The notes beneath the pieces were generated by a model. That model did no database searches. It saw only the letters and a program-made list of their open reading frames with translations, and was not told the origin of the DNA. From Mesaphorura yosii (Eukaryota > Arthropoda > Collembola > Poduromorpha > Tullbergiidae), in contig WIXG01000018.1 in the NCBI GenBank assembly GCA_009869945.1, positions 310,001 through 374,000 of the forward strand: a stretch of 64,000 nt of DNA. The letters run 5' to 3'. A program made the translations under genes and the position numbers. Below are positions 19,865-35,554 of the stretch, one piece after another; position 1 is the stretch's first letter; each line of letters opens with the position of its first letter.

Positions 19865-20004
19865 GCTCGCTACAAGGACACAATGAGAAGAGACTACTTG
19901 AATTTCTTCTTGGACAATATAATAATCTGGAACGACCCGTTGGCAACGAGTCAGAGGCACTTCAGCTTAGTTTTGGTCTCTCGCTGCAACAAATTATAGA
20001 TGTG
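19865..20004 (+). CDS. nAChRalpha6: nAChR alpha6-like exon 2 (N-terminus of mature subunit)
   Basis: The exon is 140 nt, bounded by ttacag and gtaagg. It opens with two bases completing a codon from exon 1, then SLQG and [20 protein letters not shown], running to QQIIDV. This is the N-terminal helix and first beta strand of the ligand-binding domain. The ERPV and QQIIDV motifs are shared with insect alpha6, and the SLQG start also resembles vertebrate alpha7. A glycosylation sequon (NES) is present. The length equals that of exon 2 in vertebrate alpha7 as I recall it. The exon ends in phase 0, ready to join either copy of exon 3. Confidence 0.95.
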
Positions 20005-23000
20005 GTAAGGCTTTGATTCGTACCTCAAGTGACAATAATATTATCTAACTGTGTTATTCGCAATGTACTGATTGCTTAAGCCAAAATCTTCGATTCGGTA
20101 TCTAACAAGAGGTCTATAAGCTCAATTAATTTTGCAGCGGCCTGAGAGGCCGATCGGTCGAGCTTGAGATTCTTGAAATTCTCACTCCCTTCCTTCATTA
20201 ATGTCGAAACGGCGAACGGGGAAATGTTTTTGAAACATCTCTGATCCCTCAACAGCCTGACGGCTCTGTAATTAACTCAGAACCCTCATTCTTATGGAAT
20301 ATTCGCACCATGGCCATCTTCACTCTTTATCCGGCGTCTCTTGGGATAACCAAAAAATTGCGGAACTCTCACATCCGTGCTCCAAGGGAGTAAGGCAGAC
20401 TCTAACATCATGAATTGTGTAATCTGTTGGAGTGGAAATGAGGAGAGCCACATTTCTTTTCGGAGCCTGCTGTTGACATGAAGGCAGAACCCAGTTCTCA
20501 AAAGTTGAGTGCGTGCGTAGTCACCTCCGTCAATTCATCTCCTCGAACTGTTTTAGTCACAGCCAGACTCTCCTCTTTGATTGCACACCAAGCAACGAGA
20601 CGCTTTCATGCTCAAACAAATGTTCGATCCAACTATGAAATCTATTCTGCAAATTTCACAGGCAGTTTTGCTTTCGAGATTATTTTCAACTCCAATGAAT
20701 TCCAAGTAAGCTCCTCTTTTGTCGAAGTACAACCTAGCATTATACTACTTAGCGAGAAGAAAGTACAAATCTAGACGGACTCGCTCGTGGTAGCTCGCAG
20801 CTTTACCGATCCATTTTTCTACATCAAGGAAAATACTCGTTATGCTTTCGCTTCGATTCTTGGTTGATAAATTTAAAGTTTGGGATAGGAAAAACTCGTG
20901 CCCCTGGCCAAAGTTTCAATTCGGCCATCGGAAGGAAGGCGTAATTTTCCTCCGTCTTGTGCAAAACTTGAGCCAACATTCTCTCATGTGGGATAATGAA
21001 TTCAAGAACATGAAATTGGCTTTCCTGTCCACATTCGAATACGACCTAGTCAATCGTCCTTAACCACGGTCAGTTGCTGGTGTATTTGCCAAACAGAGTT
21101 GGACCAAGTCTGATTCATAATTCATAAATCATTCTCAGATTGTTAATACCATTTCCCTTCAAAGGTCGTATTTTCCAAACTGAAAGACAGGAAATGTCCC
21201 TCGCAGCAACGCTCCGAGACATTGCACTCAGTTTATGCAGAGCTGACATGAACCAAGCCCATACATAAAATGGTATTAATGTCATTATTTATATATCGTC
21301 TCTACTCTCTCATTGGAAACAACCTCAGTATGAGGATAATAGATTTGACTCCACGGCAAATGCACAAGGCGCAGTGGCGCACTTTCACTGATTCAGAATC
21401 CAGTATTCTACTCACTTGAGGACAATCACATCAGAAAGACTCGTCAGTGAATGCCTGATGAAATGAGGTGCGTAGAATAACACACAGCTTCACGAGCTGG
21501 CTGCCAACGACCGTGGAGTTAAATGATATCTGACAGGAGGACTGTTAATCTGGAAATGAATGAAACCATTTCTATGTCAGAGATCCATCATTTAAACACA
21601 GGCGGCAGTATTTTGTATAATATTATACTTTGTATTGGCACATGAGGCATGTGAAATCTAATATCAAACTAAACTGTCACAAGATAAATGATCAGTTGGA
21701 CAACTAAACGGATCCAAATATTAACGGACAGATTCAAATGTTGTCTACTGGCAGATACACTGACCAGCTTTATGCGAAGTGGAAAGCATAAATGATAGGG
21801 AAGTACAATTTCGATATAAACTGAACATCCTAAAGACAATGCACGACGCGACCACTTGATGGCAGAGCCTTCACAAAGATTACATGTATTCAGTTATCTA
21901 GAAAAGGGGAGAGGGTTGAAAGAGTAGACAATGAAACCGCGGCATTAAAGTAAAGACGGTAAATTACGACCAGAAAAGGATTTTTCGGAAAGTGCTTTCC
22001 AAGAAGTATTATTCTGGCTTCGGCATAAAACAAATAGGTCCAAGCAGAAGCTGGCTTCGGTCGTCGTCTTTGGAGAAAACATTCATGACGTTCAGTTCCG
22101 AGCAACGACACTTCTGAATTGCACCGATGAGTAAAGAAGACGAATAAATTCTTCATGGAGAGTAATCTTAGTGCTTCGATTTGGTTCGTGGAGAAGCCAG
22201 TGTTGTGCTGCGCTGCGTGCATCAATCTTCTCTGCTGCCTCCTGAAAGGAAATCTGAAGTAATAAAATCGCAATATATTTGAAAAGTTGGACTTCAAGAA
22301 GACCTGCAAGTTGTGAAATAGTTGAGGGGATTCCTGTAACTAAAAACCACTCTGTTTGCAGAAATGAATAATTTAAACTCATCTAAAGTCGTGAATTTTT
22401 AACATGTTCTTGAATACAACTTCCATTCTCTTTTCATTGTAACGCGTTACTCGTGCCTGGCAGTAGGTACTTCTGTAGCAGAGAACGCGTACGTGTGTGT
22501 CGCAATGCGTCGTTCGCTCAGTCCATCAAAGGAAGAGTTCTAGTCTCAGCGCACGAGGAACCAATATTATGAATAGAGCATAACCCGAAAGGAAGCCTTT
22601 ACTAGCTTGTGCAGACAAATGAAGCCCCACAATCTTTACAAAACAAGTTTCCTCGCAGTCTTTCAGTGCAAGCCACCGAGGCTGAGCCCGTGCATTCAAA
22701 ATTATCCTTTCTGCTTCCTGTCCTAAGAGCAGTCTTGGTCATAATGATGCAAAAGTTATTTTTTTGGAATTGTCTAGAGCATCTGAGAAGCGAGAGCGAG
22801 GAAGAAGGAGCGCAGCTCGCTCTTCAACTGCCGTTTCCTCCAGGAATCTAATTCCTTCCTTAGAATGCTACGCATTTCTTTCGCCTAAAAACATGACTCA
22901 AGAGAAAACTCAGCCTGCCTTCTCTTCTTAATGAAAACTTCAATTACTTTCAAATTCTACTGCTCTTTGCAGTGCCTGTACCGAATTACTACATTCATTT

Positions 23001-26000
23001 CATTTATGCACTTCGATATGCAGCGAATGTACAATTTAACGATCTCTGAGCTGAACTGGCTGAAACTGTCACATTAACGTTTTCACAAAGCGAAGGCCGG
23101 GATTTCCTCCGAAAAACGCGAAGTCTTCACCTGTTTATTTATTAAAATGTGACTTCGCTCCGTGTTTCATCAGACTTTTGCAATTTTCACTTCCAGCCAA
23201 GCAAACCACCTTTTCGACGTGTTTCTTTCTTCTAAAAATTTCAAATGGTAAATGCAGTTCTCTTTGCCGCCGATTCAAATCAAATGGCTTTACAAAAATG
23301 AGGCCATGACTATTGCATAATTCCGGCGATGGGCTAATTTAACTTGGTTCTGTAGTTCTGTTCGAACAAGTTGGCGTACGTGAGTGGTGGCCATGATTAG
23401 TGTGTCCGTGCAGAAGGAAGAAGCGTTCTGAATGCGGCGTAAGTGGCCATTAAGTAATTTCTACCCACACTGGAAGTTCCAAGTGTTCGGGGTTTGAAGA
23501 TTCCACAGTGGTGGTCCTAGGTCTCGCTAAATTTTGTCATAAATCTGTCCCAAGTAACATGTCTGGTTGGAAGAAACAAATTCTGCTTGTCTCATATGTC
23601 AGGTGCACGGGTCTGGTAAATGGTTGGGATCTTCAAGATGGTGTGCCTGAGTAGCGAGGCTGCTGTAGACAATTATTTATTGCGTACATTTAAGTCGGTT
23701 GAGCATATGGAGCCAAAATAAAAACAAACTGGTAAATGGAGAAAAGAAATTCTTTGCATTTGGGAGAATATATTTTCCCATTTATTCGCCTCCTCTTCGT
23801 GAACTGGGTTGATGCTGTTTATATTACCCACTGATGTCGTTATTAAACTGTGTATGTATTATTGTAGGATGAAAAGAACCAAATATTAATAACCAATACG
23901 TGGCTCACTTTGGTAAGTTGGATATTTCCAAAACGTGTGTTTATCTCATTTCTCAAAATCGTCCATTCATTCTCCCATTTTTAATTCTGAAAATTGTAAC
24001 GGTGAAATCTTTCGGAACATAGCTTGCACTTTCCCTGCTCAACACTTTCCCGTTTGACATGAATACTCTGAATGTGTGTGTTTAGATTATTTGCATGACG
24101 CATGCCAGATGCATTTCCTGCCATTTTTGCATGCACTCTGAATCTTGATCGCACTGCACTTGCATGTGGACACGGCATGAATATAAATTTAATCCAATTG
24201 TCATCTCATCAAGAGCATCCGCAACGCTGAACGACAACCAAGACCATTATTAGAACCTGGAGTACCATGCAACCATAACATATTGAACACACCGATACGG
24301 TGGTTCGGCTCGTTTGAGTACACACGCTCGATTAAATCTGTCTCATTACGTTTACCAAGTAAAATTAAGGTGAGACCGAGAAAGGAAGCGATCGGTGCGT
24401 ACTTTTCGGAAGATAAATGGAGAACCCACTGGTGCGTATATAATTACCAATTTGAGTTTATTTGTTTAGTGTTTGAATGCATTGGTTGGTTCAGTTCCCG
24501 ATCGTACAAGCTCAAAGTACTTAAATCATGCGAACCGAAATTCGTCGTAATGATGTAGAACTTTTATTTTGCTGCCAACTCAATTTTTGATGACAGATCA
24601 AATTTTCAATTACTGGCATGCATAAGATGGAAAATAGTTCTTTGAGCATTTCCATAACCCACTTGAAATCCAAGCCCCAACGTATTAGATAGTGATACTT
24701 AGCATGAGTACGATCGGAGTAGTTCTTATACATACATAGAGAATGACTAACACAGGTTTCGACTGGCGCTCCAGGCCAAATCAATTCAGAAGCTAATTCT
24801 GAGGTTTCCGGTTAATGAGTGCCAAGGGAATTTTAGGCAACATGAAAGAAAGTTCCTGGAGAAAAGGCAAAGGCAATTTACTTCAGCCTCAAATTTCGAT
24901 TCGAATTACATGGCAGGCGAAAAAAGTTGCATTGCCTGGCTTGAACAGCGTACTTGACGACGGCGGATTTTAAGTGCAGAGGTCAAATCATGATAAAATG
25001 ATACCGGCACCTGAAAAATCCCGAGAAGGATGGGATAGATTCATAAACAGCACAGTCATAAATGTTATGCTCGAGGGGAGACCCAGCGAAACCACTTAAA
25101 AAATGCCAACAACTTTACTTTTATGACTGCCATTTGATTCCTACCGCAGACTGTGACGATCATCGATAAAAGCATAACTTTTTATTGGCTGCAAGATCTT
25201 GATCTTCGGTGTATGCCGTCTGGTGTCTTCCTATCCATTTCGGCAAGCCCGACTCTCAACTTTGCAACACAGTGTATTGATTTAAGGCCAGAGACCCGTC
25301 ACTCGTTTATACGTATACACTTTTAGCTATGTTAGCTTTTATAGGCCGTCGCAAGTTATGTGAGTCTTAGACCAAAGCGAATTGTGATGCTGGTCACTGT
25401 AATTTATTACTATTATTTATAATCTGTCTCACGAAACTTTTCTTGTTGCATGTCCCTTCCTTTCTCATAAACTAGGACGAGAAGAATCAACTCCTTAAAA
25501 CTACTATCTGGTTACGAATGGTGAGTTTCAACCAGAACACAAAAAATACTGCCTTCTTTGGATACAATCCTCGCGAGAAATCACTTCAGCAAATGTATCC
25601 GTGGTAGTTAGTGTTTTGGTTGTAGAAGTGACCCTTACAAGTGTTTGATTTTACAAGAATAAATACAGACAGGTCTTCAACAGAAGTGTAGATCCAGGAA
25701 TCTGCACTGATTGGCTCCGCCCAGTAATTGATTTAATGCAGGAATGAGAAAACGGGCCTGTTTCTAATCACATGGGTGCATGTGGAGAAAGCGTGACATG
25801 CGTTGCTTCGAATGTAAGCATCTTGCTGCTAGCTGCATGGAATTGGAGCATTGTTAATTATTTTCGCATGTGCACACATTTATAATCTTGTCCATTGGAT
25901 AGTATGATGAAAGATCAAAACTGGTTGCGCCTTCAAATGCTCAGAAAAGAGACGCAAAGATTAAAACAATCATTTCAGATACGACTGATTGAGCAAATTG

Positions 26001-29000
26001 AACAGTCAAGCTAAAGTGTGCGAGTTCAATCCTTGCACGCAACCGCCATAAATCGGCCTAATTTTCCACTTACCTTTACCATCATAATTAATATTTCAAG
26101 TTAACATTCGTAATCGGCCAATTCATGTGGAGCTCATTAATAATTGACGCTCCAAAACTCTGACGAGCACGCATTTGACGTATTCCAACATAATGAGCAT
26201 TCCTTGACTAAACGAATGCTGTGTGTGCGTGACGACTTGTCATACCAATCCGCACAGCACCAACTAACCAGGGCTGCCAGCCAGAGGTTGTATGAACTGA
26301 GTTCCTGAATAATTAAGCTACACGTTTCCCTTCATTCCCTCACTGGCGGGCAGTTTAGCAATGATTGAGTGTGACACACCTGTCCGTCAACCATTTATTG
26401 ATGATTGGTCGGGTGTGAGCCGAAATACGAGGAAATAATTATTACAAGGCATGCAACATGTCCTGCTTAATCACGTCGCCCCGATTAAATCCAAGCGGCT
26501 GCTCAAAATGAAAGCAGCCCTCTCAAGTTTCATTAAAGCGTCAAATTACTTTCACCGGATTACACGGATACACGCACACAGAAGGTGGAAAAGGTGCTCT
26601 CCATTCTGAGCTGCGAGCCTGACCAGTTGCTTGCATGTGGCTGGGAATGTGGATCTTTGTGCTGTAAATTTATTCGTGCATCCCGACCTCTCGCGCAGCA
26701 TCGCGCAACTCCTTATCTTCATCCCAGCCTCCGCTTTCTCTTCCCACTTTCTCCGTGCCATTGCCCTATGCTTGCCTGCTGCCTGGTCCACTCAGATTCC
26801 GATAGATTTCGCCTGTTCACCGGAACAATTTTCTTTACCAGTGCTTCGCTATCGATCCAAGTCCCAATTCTTTTGTCCAACTAAACCTCAAGTCAAAAAG
26901 ACTCAAGGTATTTACTATCCTATATTTAGGAATGGAATGATTACAACCTTAAATGGGATCCTGCTAAATATGGTAACATTAGTGATCTTCGTATTCCACC
27001 ACATCGAATTTGGAAGCCTGGTAAATAAATACAGAATGAACAACAAAGTGAAAAAAAAATTACTAAAAATATGAATTTATTTTCATGATTTTTAGATTTA
27101 CTGATGTACAATAGGTAATGCGGCAAATGCAATTCACGTGGTGAGCCTGACTTGACTCCAACCAACGTTCGCATATGATTTTGCATTGCAGTGCCGATGA
27201 ACAATTTGATGGAACATTTCCAACTAATGTTGTCGTACGACACAACGGAAGTTGCACTTATATCCCTCCAGGAATCTTCAAAAGCACATGTAAAATTGAT
27301 ATCACGTGGTTTCCCTTCGACGAACAAAAATGTGATATGAAGTTCGGAAGCTGGACTTATGATGGCGGGCAGGTGAGCAAATTGCAGAGGTTTTAAATTG
27401 TTCGCCATTTGCTCCAGTACATAAAATGGTAACTACAATTGAATTTGTACTTATATAGTTGGATCTCCAATTGTTCTCTGAGGATGGAGGAGACATTTCT
27501 TCTTTCGTACCAAACGGAGAATGGTCTCTGAAAGGTAAGATCCGACATTAATCATGTCACTGCAATCAAGCGTCTTATGAAAGGTTCGATACTAATGAGA
27601 TGAAAGTCGCAAATTCAAAAGGCAGCGAGAGCACCACGGAGCAATTTTCAGTCGCAGCCTACCGCGCCACCTAAGATAGCGCATCGAGACGATTGTAACC
27701 CGTTTTTACAACTGTGGGTCGGCGAACAGCCGCCGTCTCGAGCTCGCGTAGCAAATTGAATGAAAATGTAGACCGCATGCCGAGGGAAAGTTGTAACAGG
27801 AGCAAGTTCGCTCCTGGTTCGTAAAACCGATTCACGGCGAGGCGATAGTTTTAGGAGACTTTGTAGAGAAAGCGAGTGAAAGTAGACATTCCGGGCGGAA
27901 TCGATTTTCCCACTGCCGAAGATTGAATCAGTTCAATGTACCCAGCAGAGGAAGGGGAGGATGGGTTCGCTCCGCACGAAGACTTTCTCTCAGAAACAGC
28001 TTCTCTCGCTTCAAGTTTCCAACAATGCAATGCAGAAAGGCGCTCTCACGCTCATTCTATCTCTTCGGAACCAGACGTACAAATGGCGAATTCCACTCCG
28101 CGCGCACAGGCCCTTTATAATCACAACTGACTTATGTGAAACTAACATTCCTTTCATCTCACTTTAACCCGCACACTACTTTTTGCTCCACTCTACAGCG
28201 AATGTATTAATATTTGCTATTTTTGAAACTCTGTGAACCAAGCTCTTCTGCTCTCACTGCTCTGTCATTGCATCACCGTTCCTGCTCCTGCTGCCGTGAC
28301 AAATTGTCAAGAACAAGAAGAATGGAATTTGTACCACTAGTCTATTCTCGATGCAACGCATTTTTGCCCTCAAAAACAATATTTTCTCTCGTTATTATTT
28401 TTACAATACTATTCCAGGTATTTTTGTTTTCAAAGTAAACCTCCATGAATGGAAACCTGAACTCTATAAATACACGTTCAGTATCATTTAATGCTTCTTG
28501 ATATGTGCGTCAGCGTCACACACCTTTCATGTCTGGAGCAAACAAGAGAACACGAGCACAGAATTGTTTCTGTTTACTATTGCTTTTCGAACATGCCTTG
28601 CGCGAGGAACACTTTTGATTGGCGAACTGAGAGAAACATCATTCTTCATTTATAATGACTTTCTCTTGGAAGTTTTTGAAGCTCTGACGCGATTTTGAAA
28701 TGCTCACGGTGACTTCTTTGTAATGCGCTCCCGAAGCAATAAACGCGAATGAGATATGAATTTTTGACTCCCTTTTTCTGTACGTTTTGGAAAAATTTCA
28801 AGAATTCAGTGATGCTGAATTTTGAATTTTTAAACCATTCAAACGCGCTCCGAAATGAAATGCGTTTTTGACAAGCGGAATCAACATTTGGTTATCTTTA
28901 TTTTCTTTCTCTTTGTGATTGTAGGAGTTCCAGGCAATAGGAATGCAATTTATTACGCCTGTTGTAAGTTTAATTTTTCATGACATTTTTACACGCAAAA

Positions 29001-32000
29001 TATTCGATTTTTGGATTTTTGCGTGGAGCGCTCAAACTTTTGTCTAATTTCACGAAAATTTTTGTGAATTTTGTCAGGTCCTGATCCTTATGTCGATATC
29101 ACGTTTGTGATTCACATACAAAGACGCACGCTATACTATTTCTTCAATTTAATTGTTCCTTGCGTCTTAATCGCCTCCATGGCTGTGCTTGGGTTTACAC
29201 TGCCTCCAGATTCAGGAGAAAAATTATCTTTAGGTAACAAAACTCTATTTTGTACTACGCACATGATCTTTTGGTTACACATCAATTTTGTGGACAAAAC
29301 CATCATGTTTATTGACATACAATTTTTGTTTGTTATAAACACGATTTTGATCAATCTCCGCACTGCACCTTACCCACTTCCTTTATTTTTGCATCGTCAA
29401 TCCTATTCCAGCGTCTTAAATGGAGTTGAACGAGAAAACAATATATAGACTACTGCCCGAGTAATTGAAAAGATTTACAAGCGGCTCAGACTTACTTTGA
29501 GGAAAATTAATGGTCTAAAATTTGAATATTCATGCTTTGATTAGGTGTGGCCGGGCGAAGGAACATAAAATTTTATCGATGCTGTCCTGAACCGTTTAAG
29601 TGAACCATATCAATATTGCGTGCTGAGCAGTAACATGTTTATTCAATCCTTAAATTTAATGCACAGATACGTAGATGCAATATTTACGGTTCACATACAA
29701 CGACGCACGCTCTTCTACTTAATCAATTTGATAATGCCAGGTGTGATGGTTTCTTCCATGACCCTTCTCGGGTTCACTCTGCCCCACGAATGTGGAGAGA
29801 AACTGACCCTAGGTATATTGTCAGTGCATGCCTTCTCTTATCGGATAAAGTGTACTGAATTAGGAAGTGTACCAAAGACAAGAGACTTAATTACGCTAAC
29901 AAACTCAATCAAACTTGTGCATTCTTTAAAAAGCAACACACCGTATTACTTAATTGAAGTAAGGTAACTGAATTTCACCGTAAAGGACTTTTTGAAAATC
30001 AGAACCTGATCCCGAATCCTTACCTGATCCGCACATGTTTTACTCTAATTTTTGCACACAATCATAAACATGCATGGTGTCCATCAAACGTTGGTGGTAA
30101 TGAAACTGTGAAGTACACAAAGGTAATTAATGATTTATCTTGACAGGTGTTACAATATTACTTAGTTTAACAGTATTCTTAAACATGGTCGCGGAAACAA
30201 TGCCAGCAACTTCAGGTATAGCTGGTGTACACCAGAAGCATTTGAGTAGAATTTTGATCGGGCACATTCTGATTTTGCTATTTCTATCTTTTTACAGATG
30301 CAGTGCCTTTATTAGGTATTTCTACTTATATCAACATCATATTTTTGTAACCTCTGTTTTGAAAAACTGTCATATCGTTTCCTTCTTCTTTCCATTCCTG
30401 TCCGTGACTGACTGATTCCCCGTTCACTTCTCACTTGACTTGCAATAACCGTAACGCATAAGCATAGTGAAGAGATGCTGCATTTTGTGAATGACCTGTC
30501 GTGATTTCGCTAACCATAAAGTTCGCAAGCATTACTGAACGAATGTGTGTTACGTGTGCATAATCGCATAAAATGTAGGTAACGCAGACACTAAAACAGA
30601 ATCAGAACAATAAACTTGAACGAGAACGTTAAAGTTCATTCTTTCCTTTCCGCAATTTATCTCTCCCCTCTTCCGTGTTTCTCTGTAAAATGTGCAGCAC
30701 GTTAATGATCGTATTATAGAGTACATTTCTCGATTCGCTACTCACATTCTATGGAATTGCTTTTGATAGAGTAGCAATAGCGATAGTATAAAAGAGAGGC
30801 GTAACTCGGTGAGTTTTAGTTAACTTTTTTATTCCTCTCACCTTCATCTCATCCGGAGAGTTCCGTACAATGAATATTTTTTATACTTCCGACTTTTATT
30901 ATGTGCGTTTTACTAACAATTTTATGATCAATGTTTTATTGTTCTGTTTAAGACTAACTCGGAGCATGCAAACGAGCTATTTGAGTACTTTTAATGGCTG
31001 CTACAACGCTTTTATTGTTACTAATTAAATTATTCTGCTTTGACATCTGCAGTTTTGCTTCCAACGCATTGCGTTCGCTCAGTTTTGAGAATTTTGCAGT
31101 GACAGCTTCATTTTCATTTGCATAAGAATTTCCTGGCGACAATTTAACCAAGTGTGGTTAAAGTATGCCCAGATCCAATGCAACTTTTGAAATGTTTTGC
31201 GTAAGATGTACCTCCGGCAGTAATTTTACCTTCGACTGCACACGCTATCCAACTGTACACGGATTTTGTACACAGCTGAAAGATAGTAAATGTCCAAAAA
31301 TGCCCCTTCAACCTTTTCAAGATTGACCTATTTGTCAGTCACAAATAATTAATAATCATTTTGCCTTCCAGTTTGTAGTCGTTCTATAGTTCGACTGGAT
31401 GTAGACGCCTTTTCGAAATTTAAAACCATTTAATAACATTGCTATAAGAAATTTCATCCTATGCGCGCAGAAGTGGTGATTGCATGTACAATTCTGATGC
31501 TGATACGTGTCGGGCGTATTCGGAATATTAAAGCGTGTTACGAAGAGTAAAATACTTTGGTACAGTTCCTGAGTTCAATATTGTTGGATATAAGATGTAG
31601 ACTCGAAGGCTAGATTGAGCCGTTGAGCCCTCGCCTGTTTTTCCGGACGACGGAGTACAGAATTCCCAAGTTTCAGGAAGGGAGACAGTTTCCTTCGGAA
31701 TATTTGAGTAAGAAAGTAAGAAGTTGTTGGAAAATAACAAATTGAAGGAATGTTGTAATAACTAATCTTAATGTCAAAGATCAACCGTGTGTAAGTAACC
31801 AAACGCTTCAAGCCGGAGATTAAGCTTTCATTTCATTTTCCCGTCGTGCGATTTCTGCAATCCTCTCCTGCCGTACTGAAATAATAATACCAATAACAAA
31901 CATAATTTTTCTTCCTTTTCTTTTACCATTCTTGTCTTTCTTGTTCTCCAACATTTCATTCCTTCGGTAATAAATTCTCATTGAAACGAATCATTGTCAT

Positions 32001-35000
32001 AAAGCAGCCCACACATTGCAATAACTTTTGATTTTCCTTCACCTTTTCGGGTTTCACGAAATTCAATTTCTTTTCATCATCCGGGCGGTTATTTTCTTTG
32101 CGGATGTGCTCTAAATCGCTCAATCTAGCCTCAACTAATTCCTAGACTAATTTAGTCGTATCTAAAGTTGTGTTGGCTACATTGGCTCCTTGTAATATGT
32201 TATTTCATGTAATAGGAGTCACCATCTTGCTATCTCTGACGGTGTTTCACAATCTCGTGGCAGAGACCTTACCACAAGTGTCCGATGCACTTCCTGTCTT
32301 AGGTGTGTTGCTTTATGACACATTCCGCGATACGCTCCAACCTTTCGACATGCTTCGTATTAAAATTGTAAACCAGCCTAATAAAACCCTCCTTTAGTGC
32401 CCTCCTCGACAGGACTGTAATAAAACCTTCCACTTCTTCATACGCGCTACGAACACGTCAAGAGTGCGAGTTTTCGAGAAACCGTGGTATTTAATTTTTC
32501 ATCAAATTTTGCAGTCAAGCGTCCATTGTGAGTTGTGAAGGATCACAAATATTACATGACCCGGACTGCCACAAGTTCTGCATTCTTGAGAATATGAAAT
32601 CCCGTCCCGTATTGTAACCAGGTTTTATGAACTATGTTGCTGTCATCCGGCAAAATATTTTGAAGTAAGTATTGGATTTGGGTATACGGTTCGGTTCTTT
32701 TGAGGAAAAGCGAATTCCTGGCGCCGTGCTTTCCATTTTAATACGCCTACGTCAGCTTTATGACTGAAACTGAATATGACTCATATTTTGAAGCGTATTC
32801 TCTTTCAGAGCAGATTGTGCGTGTGCACTTCCGTACATGTGCCGGCCTTCGCCTCTTGGCTTTTGACGAGTTGGTTTTCCAATCATTTTTTTGTGCAATT
32901 CATGTAATTTCTTCATGACTTGGTGCTGGCATGTGTGCGTCGTACCGCAGTCTTGCAATCGCTTTAATTATGAGACCTGTGCCTTGCCTGGCCTGTAGTG
33001 ATGTGTTGCTGATGTTCCAAGCTCTTGACTTTTTGATAAGATGTCTTCCTCACGCTACACGCTCCTTCACTCTTCTTTATCTCTTTCTTCTTAAATAATT
33101 AATATTTACCTCCCGTGCAATTTTGTGTTAAAGTTTCCTTGGCCTTATTGAAACAGAAACTACTGCAACCGTCTCCGTTGGCTGATCACATTAATGAAAT
33201 TGCTTTCTCTCGACTCTTGAACCATCTAGGTACATACTTCAATTGTATAATGTTCATGGTAGCCTCTTCAGTCGTCTCAACAATTCTAATCTTGAATTAT
33301 CATCATCGGAACGCTGATACACACGAAATGTCTCAATGGGTAAGTCGCCTTTCTCTTTTCTAATCCGAATCGAAAATTGGCAAATTGTCTTGTCGCATCA
33401 AAGGACTGTGCCGTTTTCAAGTGCTAATTCCATCCTTTGGGCTGAATGAGAACGAAAACAATGAGCATAATTCAAATTCAGGCCTCTAATACCTTCAACA
33501 TTACTATCGCAAACAATCAAGTAGTAAAAGCACGCAGCATCATAATTTCATGGCACTCATTCATGAAGAAGGACATGAGTGCGTTGCACATCTCTTACAC
33601 GAATTTGAAATATGAAAGCACGTCCCAGCACTCTAGACTAGAATGGAACAAGCAAAAGTAAAAGACAATCATGCTTGCATATTTGTAGTACAAAATGTAA
33701 TGTAATGGAGTTCTCGTTCAGATGGGAACTACAGATTGTGATTGCGACCACAATGCATAAGTTTGTTGTTGCTTTTCCTAATTCAATTGTATGGATACGT
33801 TTACTAGTCTCTTGAGAGCAACACGTCGGTCCTGCCAGGCCCTCACTAGGTATAGGCACGAGTATGATGTACCTATATGCTTCATTTGGCTCAGGGTACT
33901 GGCGCTGGTAGAACAACACAAAAGAAATATTTGCCAGTATTTGTGGAAAGAGACTAAACTTTAAATTATCGTGCTCACGTTGATAGTGAAGATGTAGCTT
34001 TAAATTTCACATGAAACCCATTACCATTGCATATCCATCGCATAAACAAACCACGCACCTTCGCATCATATCCATTGCATCACGGCATCAACGTGCTCAC
34101 AATTCAAAAAGATTGCTTCCACAAAACACTGAGACCGAGAAACTGTACCAAATCTCAGCTTGAATTATATTTACAGGTGCGAATTGTATTCTTGCAATGG
34201 CTACCATGGTTTCTGAGAATGAATCGTCCTGGTGATAAGATTACTCTGAAAGCTATGGCTGCCAATGCCAAGATGCGGGATCAGATTCGGGAGCTGGAAA
34301 TGAAGGAGAGATCTTCCAAGAGCCTGTTAGCTAATGTCCTGGGTAAGTCCGCCTGCGCCTGAAAATATTTATTTATGTGAACCTTTAACGTAAAAATGTA
34401 ATCAAAATTATATCATCCACATTCCTGCCTGCCTCAGAGGCATAAATACATAAATAACGCAGTGTTGGCACTGGTGCACCAGAGAAAGTAGAAAGTACCG
34501 TCGGCCCTGGATGGTGCACCGGCCTTCTGGTCCTAAAACAGACCTATAAATTAAAAATCGGGTGAAGCATATTGCGAGATAAGTTGTTCCACAGTCCTCA
34601 GCTTTGGGTTCATCCCATGCTGTTGTGTTGCCTGCCTTCTCGACTTCTTCGTAATAAGGTCCCACGTAACAATTGGCCAGCAAATAAACTATACATTACA
34701 TAAAATGTGTATAGAATGACAAGGGATTTCGAAGAGAACGCAACGCTGCCCTGCGCTGTGCCTACTCTAACGACTTATCAATGCTCCATCTAACTCCCTG
34801 CCTAATAAATCTGAACCAAATCCAATTTCAGAAGCTCTTCAAGCCTTTTCTTGGTCGCGCCGGGCAGTGCTTCTTCTGCTACTAAATTCTTTCCATGATA
34901 CTACACCATTCGAGTCTCGCACCCGGAGAGGCCTTGCAGTGCAGACTCATTTTATGACTAGTTTTTATTGTACCTAGAAGGCTGAAGAATTGTAAATTTT

Positions 35001-35554
35001 ATTCACTTTTATTGCGAGCACGTTCGAGCCTCTCGCATACTCGAGCAATATGACTTCTTTATTTTGTCAAATGAACGGAAAAGAACTGAAATGCTGGCCG
35101 AATTTTCTTTCGGAGTTTGATTCCGAAATCAATGGCCAATAACACCGCTGCATGTCGAGTACGCATTAGTTGACTTAGTCTACTTTTGGAGGGCTAAGAG
35201 TGCTTCTTAATTGTTGCAGATATGGATGATGACTTTCGACCAGCGACTCTACGCAACACATCACTTCACTCAACACCAGGCTGGCGAATTGGTGGGTCTC
35301 ACGAGGACCCGATCGCCACGACGGTGAGTCATCATCCGTGTCTGGGCGCTCATCGGGAGCTCTCCTTAATCCTCAAAGAGATCCGCTGCATCACCGACAA
35401 AATCCGTAAAGATGACGAGGCCTCCGAGATCACCAGTGAGTGGAAGTTTGCCGCGATGGTCGTGGATCGTCTTTGCCTAATCATCTTTACGCTCTTCACT
35501 ATCATCGCAACGGTGGCGGTTCTCGCATCAGCTCCGCAGGTCTTTGTCCCTTAA
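19865..35554 (+). CDS. nAChRalpha6: Nicotinic acetylcholine receptor alpha subunit, insect alpha6-type (spliced CDS span, exon 2 to stop)
   Basis: This pentameric ligand-gated cation channel subunit binds acetylcholine at the neuronal surface and opens a Na+/K+/Ca2+ pore. The assembled frame is exon 2 (140 nt), 3a or 3b (45), 4 as 91+19, 5 (181), 6 (76), 7a as 39+156 or 7b as 55+146, 8a as 69+18 or 8b (87), 9 (110), 10 (166) and 11 (335). That is 481 residues after the split exon 1/2 codon, or 512 with candidate exon 1A, close to the roughly 500 expected. Seen directly: a Cys-loop with 13 residues between cysteines, a vicinal Cys pair in loop C, GEK before TM2, four membrane segments and all reading frames joined. 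Paired copies of exons 3 and 8 are the known signature of insect alpha6 and argue against alpha5 or alpha7. Identity as an alpha7-class nAChR is near certain. The alpha6 label is strong inference. Confidence 0.93.
20005..23867 (+). other. Intron 2, no supported gene
   Basis: A 3.9-kb intron between exon 2 and exon 3a. A 44-nt stretch at 20662-20705 is bounded by a fair acceptor and a gtaagc donor, but it would shift the frame and has no nAChR similarity, so it is not called. No extra exon 3 copy was found by eye. Confidence 0.7.
23868..23912 (+). CDS. nAChRalpha6: nAChR alpha6-like exon 3a (alternative loop D exon)
   Basis: A 45-nt cassette with acceptor attgtag and donor gtaagt encodes [15 protein letters not shown]. 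It supplies loop D of the complementary binding face, with the conserved aromatic Trp in WL-T. Both ends are phase 0, so it is interchangeable with exon 3b at 25476-25520. The 45-nt size is that of the conserved exon 3 in alpha7-type genes. In insect alpha6 two mutually exclusive exon 3 copies are known, and this is one of the pair. Including both copies, or neither, would not break the frame. Confidence 0.93.
23913..25475 (+). other. Spacer between exons 3a and 3b
   Basis: A 1.56-kb intronic spacer. Its length makes simple steric exclusion between exons 3a and 3b unlikely. The minus strand carries a zinc-finger-like fragment at 23981-24178, listed separately. Nothing else coding is seen. Confidence 0.7.
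23981..24178 (-). pseudogene. C2H2 zinc-finger-like fragment, antisense in nAChR intron
   Basis: A 65-codon minus-strand frame contains [11 protein letters not shown] (L-x2-H-x4-H, the second half of a C2H2 finger), a basic linker, then [12 protein letters not shown] (C-x2-C-x3-F, the first half of another finger), and stops a few residues later. The cysteines expected for the first finger are absent from this frame, and the second finger never reaches its histidines. It looks like a decayed or truncated finger pair, perhaps from an inserted gene copy. A chance resemblance, or one exon of a minus-strand gene, is also possible. Confidence 0.2.
25476..25520 (+). CDS. nAChRalpha6: nAChR alpha6-like exon 3b (alternative loop D exon)
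   Basis: The second 45-nt copy of exon 3, with acceptor aactag and donor gtgagt, encodes [15 protein letters not shown]. It shares DEKNQ and the loop D Trp with exon 3a but differs at several other positions, including Thr to Arg just after WL. Phase 0 at both ends makes it a drop-in replacement for 3a. Conservation of frame, length, splice sites and key residues indicates a functional alternative exon rather than a relic. The Arg falls where loop D residues are known to influence neonicotinoid binding in other subunits. Confidence 0.92.
25521..26929 (+). other. Intron 3 downstream of exon 3b, no supported gene
   Basis: A 1.4-kb intron. A T-arm-like hairpin near 26017-26034 with a B-box-like GTTCAATCC was examined for a tRNA and rejected. 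Overlapping open frames near 26.55-26.9 kb carry no family motif. Confidence 0.65.
26930..27020 (+). CDS. nAChRalpha6: nAChR alpha6-like exon 4, first part
   Basis: This 91-nt exon follows tatatttag and ends at CCTG|gtaaat, phase 1. It encodes [26 protein letters not shown] and IWKP, the strand and loop A region, including the W-K-P that precedes Asp in loop A. A sequon NIS is present. In alpha7-type genes this region is a single 110-nt exon that continues D-V-L-M-Y-N. Here it stops after P plus one base, and reading on gives GK and then a stop. The missing 19 nt are found 75 nt downstream at 27096. The split therefore looks like an intron inserted into an ancestral exon. Confidence 0.93.
27096..27114 (+). 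CDS. nAChRalpha6: nAChR alpha6-like exon 4, 19-nt microexon
   Basis: A 19-nt exon lies between tttttag and gtaatg. Its first two bases complete an Asp codon with the G ending the preceding exon, then come L-L-M-Y-N, and its last two bases make Ser with the first base of exon 5. The result, [16 protein letters not shown], restores loop A exactly as in other alpha subunits. 91+19 equals the conserved 110 nt. Without this microexon the phases of exons 4 and 5 do not match (phase 1 into an exon starting with one completing base), so it must be included in a functional mRNA. Confidence 0.9.
27192..27372 (+). CDS. nAChRalpha6: nAChR alpha6-like exon 5 (Cys-loop and loop B)
   Basis: The exon is 181 nt, with acceptor cattgcag and donor CAG|gtgagc. 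It encodes [13 protein letters not shown] (first Ser split), a sequon in HNGSC, the PPGIFKSTC strand, the full Cys-loop (Cys, 13 residues including ITWFPFDEQ, Cys), and loop B with the binding-site Trp in GSWTYDG. It appears to fuse the ancestral 80-nt exon 5 with the first 101 nt of exon 6: 181+76 equals 80+168 plus three extra codons relative to vertebrate alpha7. In Drosophila alpha6 this region is a known A-to-I RNA-editing target. Whether it is edited here cannot be read from DNA. Confidence 0.95.
27459..27534 (+). CDS. nAChRalpha6: nAChR alpha6-like exon 6
   Basis: The exon is 76 nt, follows an 86-nt intron, has acceptor ttatatag and ends at AAAG|gtaaga, phase 1. It encodes [20 protein letters not shown] and EWSLK, the strand leading into loop C. 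The NGEW motif is typical of the family. It can splice to either exon 7 copy, since both begin with two bases that complete a Gly codon (GGA or GGT). Confidence 0.94.
27535..28924 (+). other. Intron 6, no supported gene
   Basis: A 1.39-kb intron before the first exon 7 copy. The part around 27.6-28.1 kb is visibly richer in G+C and CpG than its surroundings. Overlapping + strand frames there have no family motif. No third exon 7-like copy (no CCPEP-type motif) was found. Confidence 0.65.
28925..28963 (+). CDS. nAChRalpha6: nAChR alpha6-like exon 7a, first part (loop C)
   Basis: The exon is 39 nt, with acceptor gattgtag and donor gtaagt. It encodes [13 protein letters not shown] and the first base of the second Cys, so it carries the loop C Tyr and the first cysteine of the vicinal pair that defines alpha subunits. 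It ends in phase 1 (T|GT). 39+156 equals 195 nt, the length of the undivided exon 7 in alpha7-type genes, so the 114-nt intron that follows appears inserted, cutting between the two loop C cysteines. Confidence 0.94.
29078..29233 (+). CDS. nAChRalpha6: nAChR alpha6-like exon 7a, second part (TM1 and inner pore mouth)
   Basis: The exon is 156 nt, with acceptor tttgtcag and donor TTAG|gtaaca. It completes the second vicinal Cys and continues [20 protein letters not shown], then TM1 ([20 protein letters not shown]), and the TM1-TM2 linker [12 protein letters not shown], whose Glu in GEK lies at the cation-selectivity ring. The loop C Tyr after P-D-P is present. It ends in phase 1 for exon 8a or 8b. 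The sequence is very close to the canonical insect alpha6/alpha7 form, so 7a is the conventional version. Confidence 0.95.
29234..29544 (+). other. Spacer between exon 7 copies
   Basis: A 311-nt intronic spacer separates exon 7a from exon 7b. The frame that reads through from exon 7a is shadow sequence. No coding motif is visible. Confidence 0.7.
29545..29599 (+). CDS. nAChRalpha6: nAChR alpha6-like exon 7b, first part (alternative loop C)
   Basis: The exon is 55 nt, with acceptor tgattag and donor gtgaac (TTTAA|gtgaac). With the G from exon 6 it encodes [18 protein letters not shown] plus two bases. It is a diverged copy of the loop C exon and retains the vicinal cysteines, the preceding Tyr and the P-E-P turn. 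The conserved Tyr after P-x-P is Phe. Its intron falls seven codons later than in exon 7a and in phase 2 rather than phase 1, so it cannot splice in frame to the second part of 7a. No open-frame search of ordinary size would have shown it. Confidence 0.82.
29667..29812 (+). CDS. nAChRalpha6: nAChR alpha6-like exon 7b, second part (alternative TM1)
   Basis: The exon is 146 nt, with acceptor atgcacag and donor CTAG|gtatat. Its first base completes Lys with the AA ending 7b part 1. It continues [19 protein letters not shown]1 ([20 protein letters not shown]) and [12 protein letters not shown]. The RRTL, NLI-P, LGFTLP and GEKL landmarks are conserved, and the Cys after the TM1 Pro is Gly. 55+146 is 201 nt, two codons more than 7a. 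It ends in phase 1, matching exon 8a or 8b. Two other AG acceptors, after GAG and CAG near 29626-29630, would also be in frame and add residues, so the exact start is less certain than the rest. Confidence 0.82.
29813..30146 (+). other. Intron between exon 7b and exon 8a
   Basis: A 334-nt intron with no coding signal seen. It ends at cttgacag before exon 8a. Confidence 0.7.
30147..30215 (+). CDS. nAChRalpha6: nAChR alpha6-like exon 8a, first part (TM2)
   Basis: The exon is 69 nt, with acceptor cttgacag and donor TCAG|gtatag, phase 1. It encodes [20 protein letters not shown] and ATS, the pore-lining TM2 helix with the conserved Leu at 9', Val at 13' and Glu at 20'. ETMPATS matches the alpha7-like type and one of the known insect alpha6 exon 8 variants. 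The conserved exon 8 is 87 nt and continues DAVPLLG. Here those residues sit in a separate 18-nt microexon 82 nt downstream. Confidence 0.94.
30298..30315 (+). CDS. nAChRalpha6: nAChR alpha6-like exon 8a, 18-nt microexon
   Basis: An 18-nt exon lies between tttttacag and gtattt. With the G from the preceding exon it encodes D-A-V-P-L-L and the first base of Gly, the TM2-TM3 loop, which couples binding to gating. 69+18 is exactly 87 nt, the length of exon 8b and of the ancestral exon. Skipping it would keep the frame but delete six residues of the coupling loop, so a skipped isoform, if made, should be defective or altered in gating. Confidence 0.9.
   Translation: MQCLY
30316..32215 (+). other. 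Spacer between exon 8 copies
   Basis: A 1.9-kb intron between exons 8a and 8b. It contains a TATAAAAG at 30787-30794 followed by a short open frame, but nothing shows that this is a promoter. No third exon 8 copy was found, though insects can have three. Confidence 0.6.
32216..32302 (+). CDS. nAChRalpha6: nAChR alpha6-like exon 8b (alternative TM2 exon)
   Basis: This is an undivided 87-nt cassette with acceptor gtaatag and donor TTAG|gtgtgt. It encodes [20 protein letters not shown] and [10 protein letters not shown]. It is the alternative to exon 8a, with the same phases at both ends. QVSDA after the TM2 Glu matches the second class of insect alpha6 exon 8 variants. Unlike 8a it has no internal intron. 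Where 8a has Leu at TM2 position 15', this copy has His, next to the binding-coupled top of the pore. 9' Leu, 13' Val and 20' Glu are kept, so it should still form a cation pore. Confidence 0.94.
32303..33229 (+). other. Intron 8, no supported gene
   Basis: A 0.93-kb intron between exon 8b and exon 9. No motif-bearing frame was seen. Confidence 0.7.
33230..33339 (+). CDS. nAChRalpha6: nAChR alpha6-like exon 9 (TM3)
   Basis: The exon is 110 nt, with acceptor catctag and donor TGG|gtaagt. It encodes the second half of a split Gly, then [20 protein letters not shown] and [18 protein letters not shown]3 and the start of the cytoplasmic loop. 110 nt is the conserved length of this exon. The Gly spanning the exon 8/9 junction, at the top of TM3, appears to be the position mutated in spinosad-resistant thrips (reported as G275E). 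Here it is Gly with either exon 8 copy, the sensitive-type residue. Confidence 0.95.
33340..34176 (+). other. Intron 9, no supported gene
   Basis: A 0.84-kb intron between exons 9 and 10. No coding motif was recognised. Confidence 0.7.
34177..34342 (+). CDS. nAChRalpha6: nAChR alpha6-like exon 10 (cytoplasmic loop, proximal)
   Basis: The exon is 166 nt, with acceptor atttacag and donor CTGG|gtaagt. It encodes [19 protein letters not shown], the post-TM3 amphipathic segment, a lysine- and alanine-rich stretch, and [17 protein letters not shown]. The [14 protein letters not shown] motif is characteristic of insect alpha6/alpha7-type subunits and helped the assignment. It starts in phase 0 and ends in phase 1. 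Confidence 0.95.
34343..35219 (+). other. Intron 10, no supported gene
   Basis: A 0.88-kb intron. A minus-strand open frame at 34408-34683 has no recognisable motif and is treated as chance. Confidence 0.7.
35220..35554 (+). CDS. nAChRalpha6: nAChR alpha6-like exon 11 (distal loop, TM4, stop)
   Basis: The terminal coding exon is 335 nt, with acceptor ttgttgcag. It encodes DMDDDFRP (Asp split with exon 10), a variable loop, the membrane-associated helix ([18 protein letters not shown]), then [20 protein letters not shown] and TM4, ending SAPQVFVP and [14 protein letters not shown] is the standard pre-TM4 motif. The C-terminal tail differs from the HIIVQ ending I recall for Drosophila alpha6, so this is not a close relative of the flies. 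A cryptic gtgagt at 35323 is read through, because the downstream residues continue the family alignment. Confidence 0.95.

Follow-up and report, generated by a model that had tools for sequence, protein, structure and literature searches.

A candidate alternative loop C/TM1 exon in an alpha6/alpha7-like nicotinic acetylcholine receptor gene of Mesaphorura yosii

A second full exon encoding loop C and TM1 (exon 7b) lies 3′ of the canonical one (exon 7a) in a nicotinic acetylcholine receptor (nAChR) gene of Mesaphorura yosii, and sequence analysis supported its reading as an intact, old copy with signs of constraint at the protein level. Exon 7b is probably a tandem duplicate of exon 7 that was kept as an alternative exon in an alpha6/alpha7-like gene, and two receptor types could probably be made through alternative splicing.

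The gene and its two copies of exon 7

The window analysed was a stretch of 64,000 nt from contig WIXG01000018.1 (positions 310,001 to 374,000, forward strand), and all coordinates given here are positions in this window on the + strand. The gene was read from exon 2 to the stop codon (19876-35554), the 5′ limit being arbitrary and not a splice site. LBD and TM Pfam domains of Cys-loop channels were present, human alpha7 was the best solved relative, and the vicinal cysteines of loop C (YxCC) were found in the translations of both 7a and 7b; the gene appears to encode an alpha-type nAChR subunit like alpha6/alpha7 (insect alpha5/6/7 group). A paired exon 3 and a paired exon 8, characteristic of alpha6-type genes, were read within this one gene.

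Exon 2 (19876..20004, 43 residues) is followed by two alternatives of exon 3 (23868..23912 and 25476..25520, 15 residues each), exon 4 (26930..27020), a 19-nt micro-exon encoding DLLMYN (27096..27114), exon 5 with the Cys-loop (27192..27372), and exon 6 (27459..27534), which ends in phase 1 and is the 5′ partner common to 7a and 7b. Exon 7a consists of a 39-nt part 1 (28925..28963), covering loop C to the second Cys codon, and a 156-nt part 2 (29078..29233), running from CPDPY through TM1 to GEKL with a Pfam match. Exon 7b consists of a 55-nt part 1 (29545..29599; loop C, donor alternatively at 29593) and a 146-nt part 2 (29667..29812; beta10, TM1, and GEKL, with Pfam and PDB matches). Downstream lie exon 8a, composed of part 1 (30147..30215; TM2, ending in VAETMPATS) and an 18-nt micro-exon as part 2 (30298..30315; DAVPLLG), exon 8b (32216..32302; 29 residues), exon 9 with TM3 (33230..33339), exon 10 with the intracellular loop (34177..34342), and exon 11 with TM4 and the stop codon (35220..35554). 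Whichever exon 3 (two), exon 7 (7a, or 7b with either donor), and exon 8 (8a or 8b) were combined, the frame stayed open to the stop in exon 11 (12 combinations).

The original prediction of a complete second copy was borne out: 7b was open and shared 40 of 65 residues with 7a in register, and the predicted equality of outer phases was likewise found, both copies being entered in phase 1 (after 27534) and left in phase 1 (to 30147 or 32216). The 7a peptide has 65 residues and the 7b peptide 67 when donor 29599 is used, and 7b retains the alpha-subunit motif YxCC as well as RRTL and GEKL. The Pfam LBD/TM scores were 240.6/108.8 bits for the 7b isoform versus 243.2/115.8 bits for the 7a isoform, and the top PDB match of both was the same human alpha7 chain (120.0 bits for 7b, 140.6 bits for 7a). 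Among the matches listed (at least 27 and at least 32 in whole-genome searches with the exon-7 peptides), this was the only gene with two copies of exon 7. Judged from the shared residues and the Pfam and PDB matches, the resemblance of 7b to 7a is not due to chance. It is very improbable that 7b is an assembly artefact, represents a second allele, or was misplaced from another gene: at the identity given above the third positions of 7a and 7b are saturated, the stretch lies on a single contig with a 127-nt piece (73%) as the only other DNA match, and among the matches listed the 7b peptide came closest, apart from itself, to 7a. No sign of an artefact was found at the 7b locus; elsewhere, two nAChR loci (C167 and C528) looked near-identical in the compared stretch.

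Constraint on exon 7b and age of the duplication

Because synonymous sites were saturated, a codon likelihood test on three sequences was indecisive (neutrality on the 7b branch not rejected, 2dlnL 0.73), and a simulation of neutral decay was added, in which 2000 runs were started from 7a and 2000 from a paralog, each continuing to the number of residue changes seen in 7b. The similarity score of 7b to human alpha7 was 191, and the neutral runs scored 119±16 (7a start) and 111±16 (paralog start), with 0/2000 runs reaching the score of 7b from either start. With the paralog as the start, 21/2000 neutral runs attained the similarity of 7b to that start.

These results bear on the explanation that 7b is a decaying exon, formerly functional and now rarely or never spliced, whose frame has yet to be broken. 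Decay is unlikely, although the three-sequence codon test is compatible with neutrality and 7b carries about three times more unique residue changes than 7a (16 vs 5), including Pro-Cys to Pro-Gly in TM1 and PPDS to PHEC. Against it, the similarity to human alpha7 exceeded that of every neutral run from both starts, and 65 codons were free of stops and frameshifts; the open frame by itself is weak evidence, since 20% and 14% of the simulations also stayed stop-free. Polarised synonymous changes were about equal in number (7b 8, 7a 7, paralog 9).

An eight-row tree built for exon 7 grouped 7a, 7b, and the neighbouring paralog apart from human alpha7 (97/98). The inner order 7a+7b received 61/37, its alternatives were not rejected (p 0.28 and 0.097), and the order of 7a, 7b, and the paralog was likewise undecided in a 12-row tree.

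Splice sites, intron phases, and possible products

The internal introns of the two copies were in the predicted phases, phase 1 in 7a and phase 2 in 7b. The 7a intron lies inside the codon for the second vicinal Cys, and the 7b intron is placed 16 nt (5 codons + 1 nt) farther 3′ in its exon, not the seven codons first given. Two donor candidates of 7b part 1, both in phase 2, were found 6 nt apart: 29599 (|gtgaac) is the better site but adds FK to loop C relative to 7a and human alpha7, and 29593 (|gtttaagt) gives the colinear CCPEPYVDAIF with a very poor score. Donor 29599 was the poorest of those scored (1.44 bits; weakest of 14 others, 4.57), and so was the acceptor of 7b part 2 (-0.77; weakest of 13 others, 1.07), which scored -1.36 in a rerun including exon 11. 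These two weakest sites agree with the decay of 7b; the strong outer donor at 29812 (8.13 bits) argues against it.

The proposal that the unequal phases lock the halves in pairs held for the joining of 7a part 1 to 7b part 2, which is blocked by frame. The lock is only partial, because tandem inclusion of 7a and 7b, joining of 7a part 1 to 7b part 1, and skipping of both copies all stay in frame despite the phases. Joining of 7a part 1 to a cryptic AG before 29675 would also be in frame, with loss of the second Cys and a very poor acceptor (-5.99), and the mis-splice from 7b part 1 to 7a part 2 is in any case impossible in linear splicing. By hand reading, intron positions in loop C differ between paralogs of the same genome; the unequal phases of 7a and 7b are therefore most simply explained by independent intron gain or sliding, probably after the duplication, and would suppress one mis-splice rather than constitute the switch.

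In some mutually exclusive pairs, the use of both copies is blocked by frame or sterically. Exons 7a and 7b share with exclusive pairs their neighbouring homologous exons, equal outer phases, and open frames; neither kind of block was found, as the tandem is in frame and the spacer measures 311 nt. The spacer would be too long for steric exclusion, in keeping with an additive or poison form in which 7b is joined with 7a or enters truncated products and yields a non-channel or dominant-negative subunit instead of a substitute; 7a part 1 followed by both parts of 7b is in frame, as is the tandem 7a+7b, which is open to the final stop. Such a form is nevertheless quite improbable, since two TM1 helices would be expected to wreck the topology and a 7b in which loop C and TM1 are conserved suits a working channel.

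Under the preferred reading, that of an alternative exon, exon 6 would be spliced to one of the two exon 7 copies and this copy to 8a or 8b; loop C, beta10, TM1, and the segment preceding TM1 would vary between the resulting subunits, with the remainder in common. We infer that 7b is used in RNA, in mutual exclusivity with 7a, and that the channel is affected. Exon 7a is presumably the main form, because its internal splice sites are better and its sequence is more conserved, and 7b would serve as a minor or regulated variant whose agonist affinity and gating are changed. The suggestion that the agonist lid and TM1 are switched as a unit thus stands as a possible exchange, from the intact 7b, the paired exons 3 and 8, and the signs of constraint.

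A predicted stem and comparison with known systems

A 37-pair stem was predicted between the introns flanking 7b, with its left arm in the 7a-7b intron (29274..29315) and its right arm in the 7b-8a intron (30062..30101), ending 45 nt before exon 8a. Its energy was -37.6 kcal/mol, with 0/200 shuffles as low, and the outer 34 pairs had mean probabilities of 0.96, 0.89, and 0.96 in three contexts. Raw energies of this size were common in the window (36/341 tiles as low; 3/341 after GC correction), and the whole 913-nt stretch was not unusually stable (z -1.06). Pairing of the last 500 nt of intron 6 with later introns was not above shuffles (39/60 and 16/60 as good), the left arm with its surroundings matched only itself in the genome, and an Rfam scan of the window gave no match at the gathering threshold. 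In RNA-looping (docking/selector) control of exclusive exons, strong intronic pairing spans the skipped exon. The role we infer for the predicted stem is that it could loop out 7b and favour the joining of 7a to 8a. A-to-I editing is extensive in insect counterparts of this gene, and the stem, as a long double-stranded RNA in such a gene, could be tuned by editing. The fuller proposal, that one splice choice set by this stem and tunable by editing swaps loop C, the downstroke strand, and TM1 to give two modes of transmitter sensitivity and gating, is doubtful.

Loop C is a determinant of affinity for agonists and neonicotinoids, and TM1 takes part in coupling binding to the gate. A natural pair in which both are swapped would be a ready-made test of how they act as a unit and, if the exchange is real, at least eight subunits would be possible from this gene together with the paired exons 3 and 8.

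Duplicated nAChR exons are already known. In insect alpha6, the target of spinosad (PMC5111602), exon 3 has two and exon 8 two or three alternatives (PMC1919356). That gene is of the same type, with tandem homologous exons and, as here, two exons 3 and two exons 8; it differs in that its exon 8 versions alter TM2 and the TM2-TM3 region (PMC2064938, PMC10906874), and exon 3 belongs to the N-terminal domain (position as read in the present gene). A word search of PMC1919356 gave no occurrence of 'exon 7' or 'TM1'. According to the original prediction, a duplicated exon 7 is not known; no duplicated loop C/TM1 exon of a nAChR was found in full-text searches of open-licence PMC papers. Relative to that literature, 7b would add a binding-site segment to the parts of nAChRs exchanged by exon switching.

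Bombyx alpha8 has alternative exons 7 at TM2 and TM3 whose copies are 86% identical, which indicates a recent duplication (PMC2045683); these are also named exon 7, duplicated, and alternatively spliced, but belong to another subunit and another position than loop C/TM1. Alternative duplicated exon 4 of nAChR alpha4 resembles 7b in altering ligand-binding parts (PMC2045683, PMC2064938, PMC10906874). In Tribolium GRD and pHCl, loop C of a Cys-loop channel is also diversified by splicing; there, residues are inserted through alternative splice sites in other subunits, without a swap of a whole exon with TM1 (PMC2064938). The 6-nt ambiguity of the 7b donor would resemble these loop C insertions.

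The receptor gene and its second loop C/TM1 exon

The nAChR gene in the window was reconstructed on the forward strand from exon 2 to the stop codon (19876-35554; window coordinates unless a contig is named), the 5′ limit of exon 2 being arbitrary and left out of splice-site scoring. As in insect alpha6, for which published accounts describe alternative exons 3 and 8 (PMC1919356, PMC2064938), exon 3 was present in two versions (23868-23912 and 25476-25520, both +) and so was exon 8 (8a, 30147-30315, and 8b, 32216-32302, both +). Exon 8a is in two pieces, interrupted by an 82-nt intron that sets off an 18-nt micro-exon (DAVPLLG); 8b is a single, undivided piece. Another micro-exon (19 nt, DLLMYN) lies between exons 4 and 5 at 27096-27114.

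The canonical loop C/TM1 exon, 7a (28925-28963 and 29078-29233; 39 + 156 nt), is followed by the predicted second copy, 7b (29545-29599 and 29667-29812; 55 + 146 nt), and the equal outer phases were borne out, each copy being in phase 1 on both sides. Whichever exon 3 was taken, together with 7a or 7b (the latter with either of its candidate internal donors) and 8a or 8b, the frame stayed open up to the terminal stop (12/12 combinations). Both Cys-loop channel domains (Pfam) were matched in the 7a and 7b isoforms, and human alpha7 was the best solved relative (PDB) of each. The vicinal cysteine pair, the aromatic residue in front of it, RRTL and GEKL are retained in 7b. In its TM1, Pro-Cys is replaced by Pro-Gly; PPDS reads PHEC in 7b, and TLYY reads TLFY.

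Divergence and apparent constraint of 7b

The copies were compared with each other and with the single exon 7 of the neighbour paralog, an alpha7-like nAChR gene located before the window on the same contig (C18:253836-268489, locus L069, - strand, opposite to the window gene). In the colinear reading, 7a and 7b were identical at 40/65 residues (19, 11 and 40 differences at codon positions 1, 2 and 3), 7a and the paralog at 50/65 (16, 7 and 45), and 7b and the paralog at 39/65 (19, 12 and 43). Third codon positions look saturated in all three comparisons, which argues that the 7a/7b duplication is old.

Neutral decay was simulated in 2000 runs per start, with stops barred; 25 residue changes were introduced when 7a was the start and 26 when the paralog was. 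The BLOSUM score of 7b to human alpha7 (191) was reached in 0/2000 runs from either start (simulated 119±16 from 7a, 111±16 from the paralog), its identity to human alpha7 (33) was matched by 2/2000 and 1/2000 runs, respectively, and its similarity to the starting sequence was attained in 0/2000 runs from 7a and 21/2000 from the paralog. Unique residue changes numbered 16 in 7b, 5 in 7a and 6 in the paralog; at the 34 codons whose residue is common to all three, unique synonymous changes numbered 8, 7 and 9 in the same order, six of these codons differing in all three sequences and four being unchanged. From these simulations and counts, 7b appears to be constrained yet evolving faster. Against constraint, its internal donor and internal acceptor were the weakest among the sites scored. 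A three-sequence codon model, with synonymous sites saturated, did not separate constraint from neutrality (2dlnL 0.73 for omega = 1 on the 7b branch). We regard 7b as probably an old tandem exon duplicate retained as an alternative exon, a confidence slightly reduced by the codon test and by the simulations started from the paralog, both of which make decay somewhat more plausible.

Internal introns and a predicted stem

The internal intron of 7b lies 16 nt further along the exon than that of 7a, not seven codons later as originally proposed. Its donor is uncertain: 29599 gives CCPEPFKYVDAIF, two residues longer than 7a (HMMER gaps those two against human alpha7), and 29593, also in phase 2, gives the colinear CCPEPYVDAIF. 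On a scoring matrix built from the other 14 donors of the gene (leave-one-out scores 4.57 to 11.2), the two sites reached 1.44 and -8.19 bits, respectively. In a simple history, an intron would have been gained at CC^A and its donor afterwards moved by 6 nt. A parallel ambiguity was seen in loop C of the neighbour paralog, whose intron is in phase 0 and further along: a GC donor right after the Tyr codon gives the colinear reading, used in the paralog comparisons, and an ordinary GT donor 21 nt downstream (5.03 bits) gives seven extra loop C residues.

The original prediction held that unequal intron phases lock the halves in pairs. Joining the first half of 7a to the second half of 7b at the main sites does meet a stop at once (YT*), but the 7a-7b tandem, the first half of 7a followed by both halves of 7b, and skipping of both copies are all in frame, so frame alone cannot make 7a and 7b exclusive. 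The first half of 7a could likewise enter the second half of 7b in frame through a cryptic AG ahead of 29675, whose acceptor score is only -5.99. As read by hand, a paralog on contig C7 resembles 7a in having a phase 1 intron that separates the two cysteines, and in a gene on contig C528 the intron falls within the Asp codon. Since intron positions in this stretch vary from gene to gene, the unequal phases need no selection.

The 7a-7b and 7b-8a introns were predicted to pair, both as whole introns (-92.3 versus -77.7±6.0 shuffled; 0/60 as low) and in their best local duplex (-37.6 versus -25.0±2.8; 0/200 as low); of the three intron pairs tested, the two that involved intron 6 (last 500 nt) showed no pairing signal. 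Tiles of matching geometry were drawn from the window outside this locus: the raw duplex energy was equalled or beaten in 36/341, in 3/341 after GC correction and in 0/23 matched for GC. The whole 913-nt stretch was not unusually stable (z -1.06), and a repeat search with ungapped arms did not list the stem as such. The duplex comprises 44 pairs, 37 of them inside arms at 29274-29315 and 30062-30101, and its outer 34 pairs had mean predicted probabilities of 0.96, 0.89 and 0.96 in 913-, 1451- and 1951-nt contexts. The arms flank 7b alone, with 45 nt from the end of the right arm to exon 8a; if formed, the stem would loop out 7b and favour 7a-to-8a joining. This folding model makes the stem a possible 7a/7b splice switch, a lead rather than a result.

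Related exons in the literature and the genome

Duplicated nAChR exons are of a known kind, including exon 4 of alpha4 (PMC2045683, PMC2064938, PMC10906874) and exon 7 of Bombyx alpha8, described with copies 86% identical (PMC2045683). The latter covers TM2/TM3, whereas exon 7 here covers loop C/TM1. Insertions are reported to diversify loop C in Tribolium GRD and pHCl (PMC2064938), and extensive A-to-I editing is described for insect alpha6 transcripts (PMC7017565). An exchanged loop C/TM1 exon in a nAChR was not found in searches of open-licence papers; the position and extent of this duplication appear to be new.

The genome (93.0 Mb, 1127 contigs) appears to be that of an arthropod, with 66 matches to Chitin_bind_4, an arthropod cuticle family. 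Four weak PBP_GOBP matches were obtained, and a search for 7tm_6 odorant receptors that likewise recovered no control gave none; an arthropod other than a winged insect, possibly a springtail, would be consistent with this. In this genome, the exon-7 peptides matched at least 27 (7b query) and at least 32 places (7a query). Among the matches listed, more than one TM1 match fell on contigs C18, C24, C79, C261 and C528, where genes had their own ligand-binding-domain matches, with two exceptions: the window gene, which carries two copies, and the neighbour paralog, in which both TM1 matches come from a single exon, one per half. Further nAChR-like exon matches lie just past the window (C18:374991-386289, +), so this contig holds a receptor gene cluster. 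The two Pfam channel domains had 115 and 154 matches genome-wide, which suggests a large Cys-loop channel family. Several of its genes look intronless, a single open frame (about 410-470 aa) covering both domains (e.g. C17:455552-456421, C8:395769-396668, and on C523, C561, C574 and C351), and two nAChR-like genes (C79:104514-104702 and C382:10213-10380) combine a canonical loop C (YYxCCPxP) with a strongly diverged TM1.
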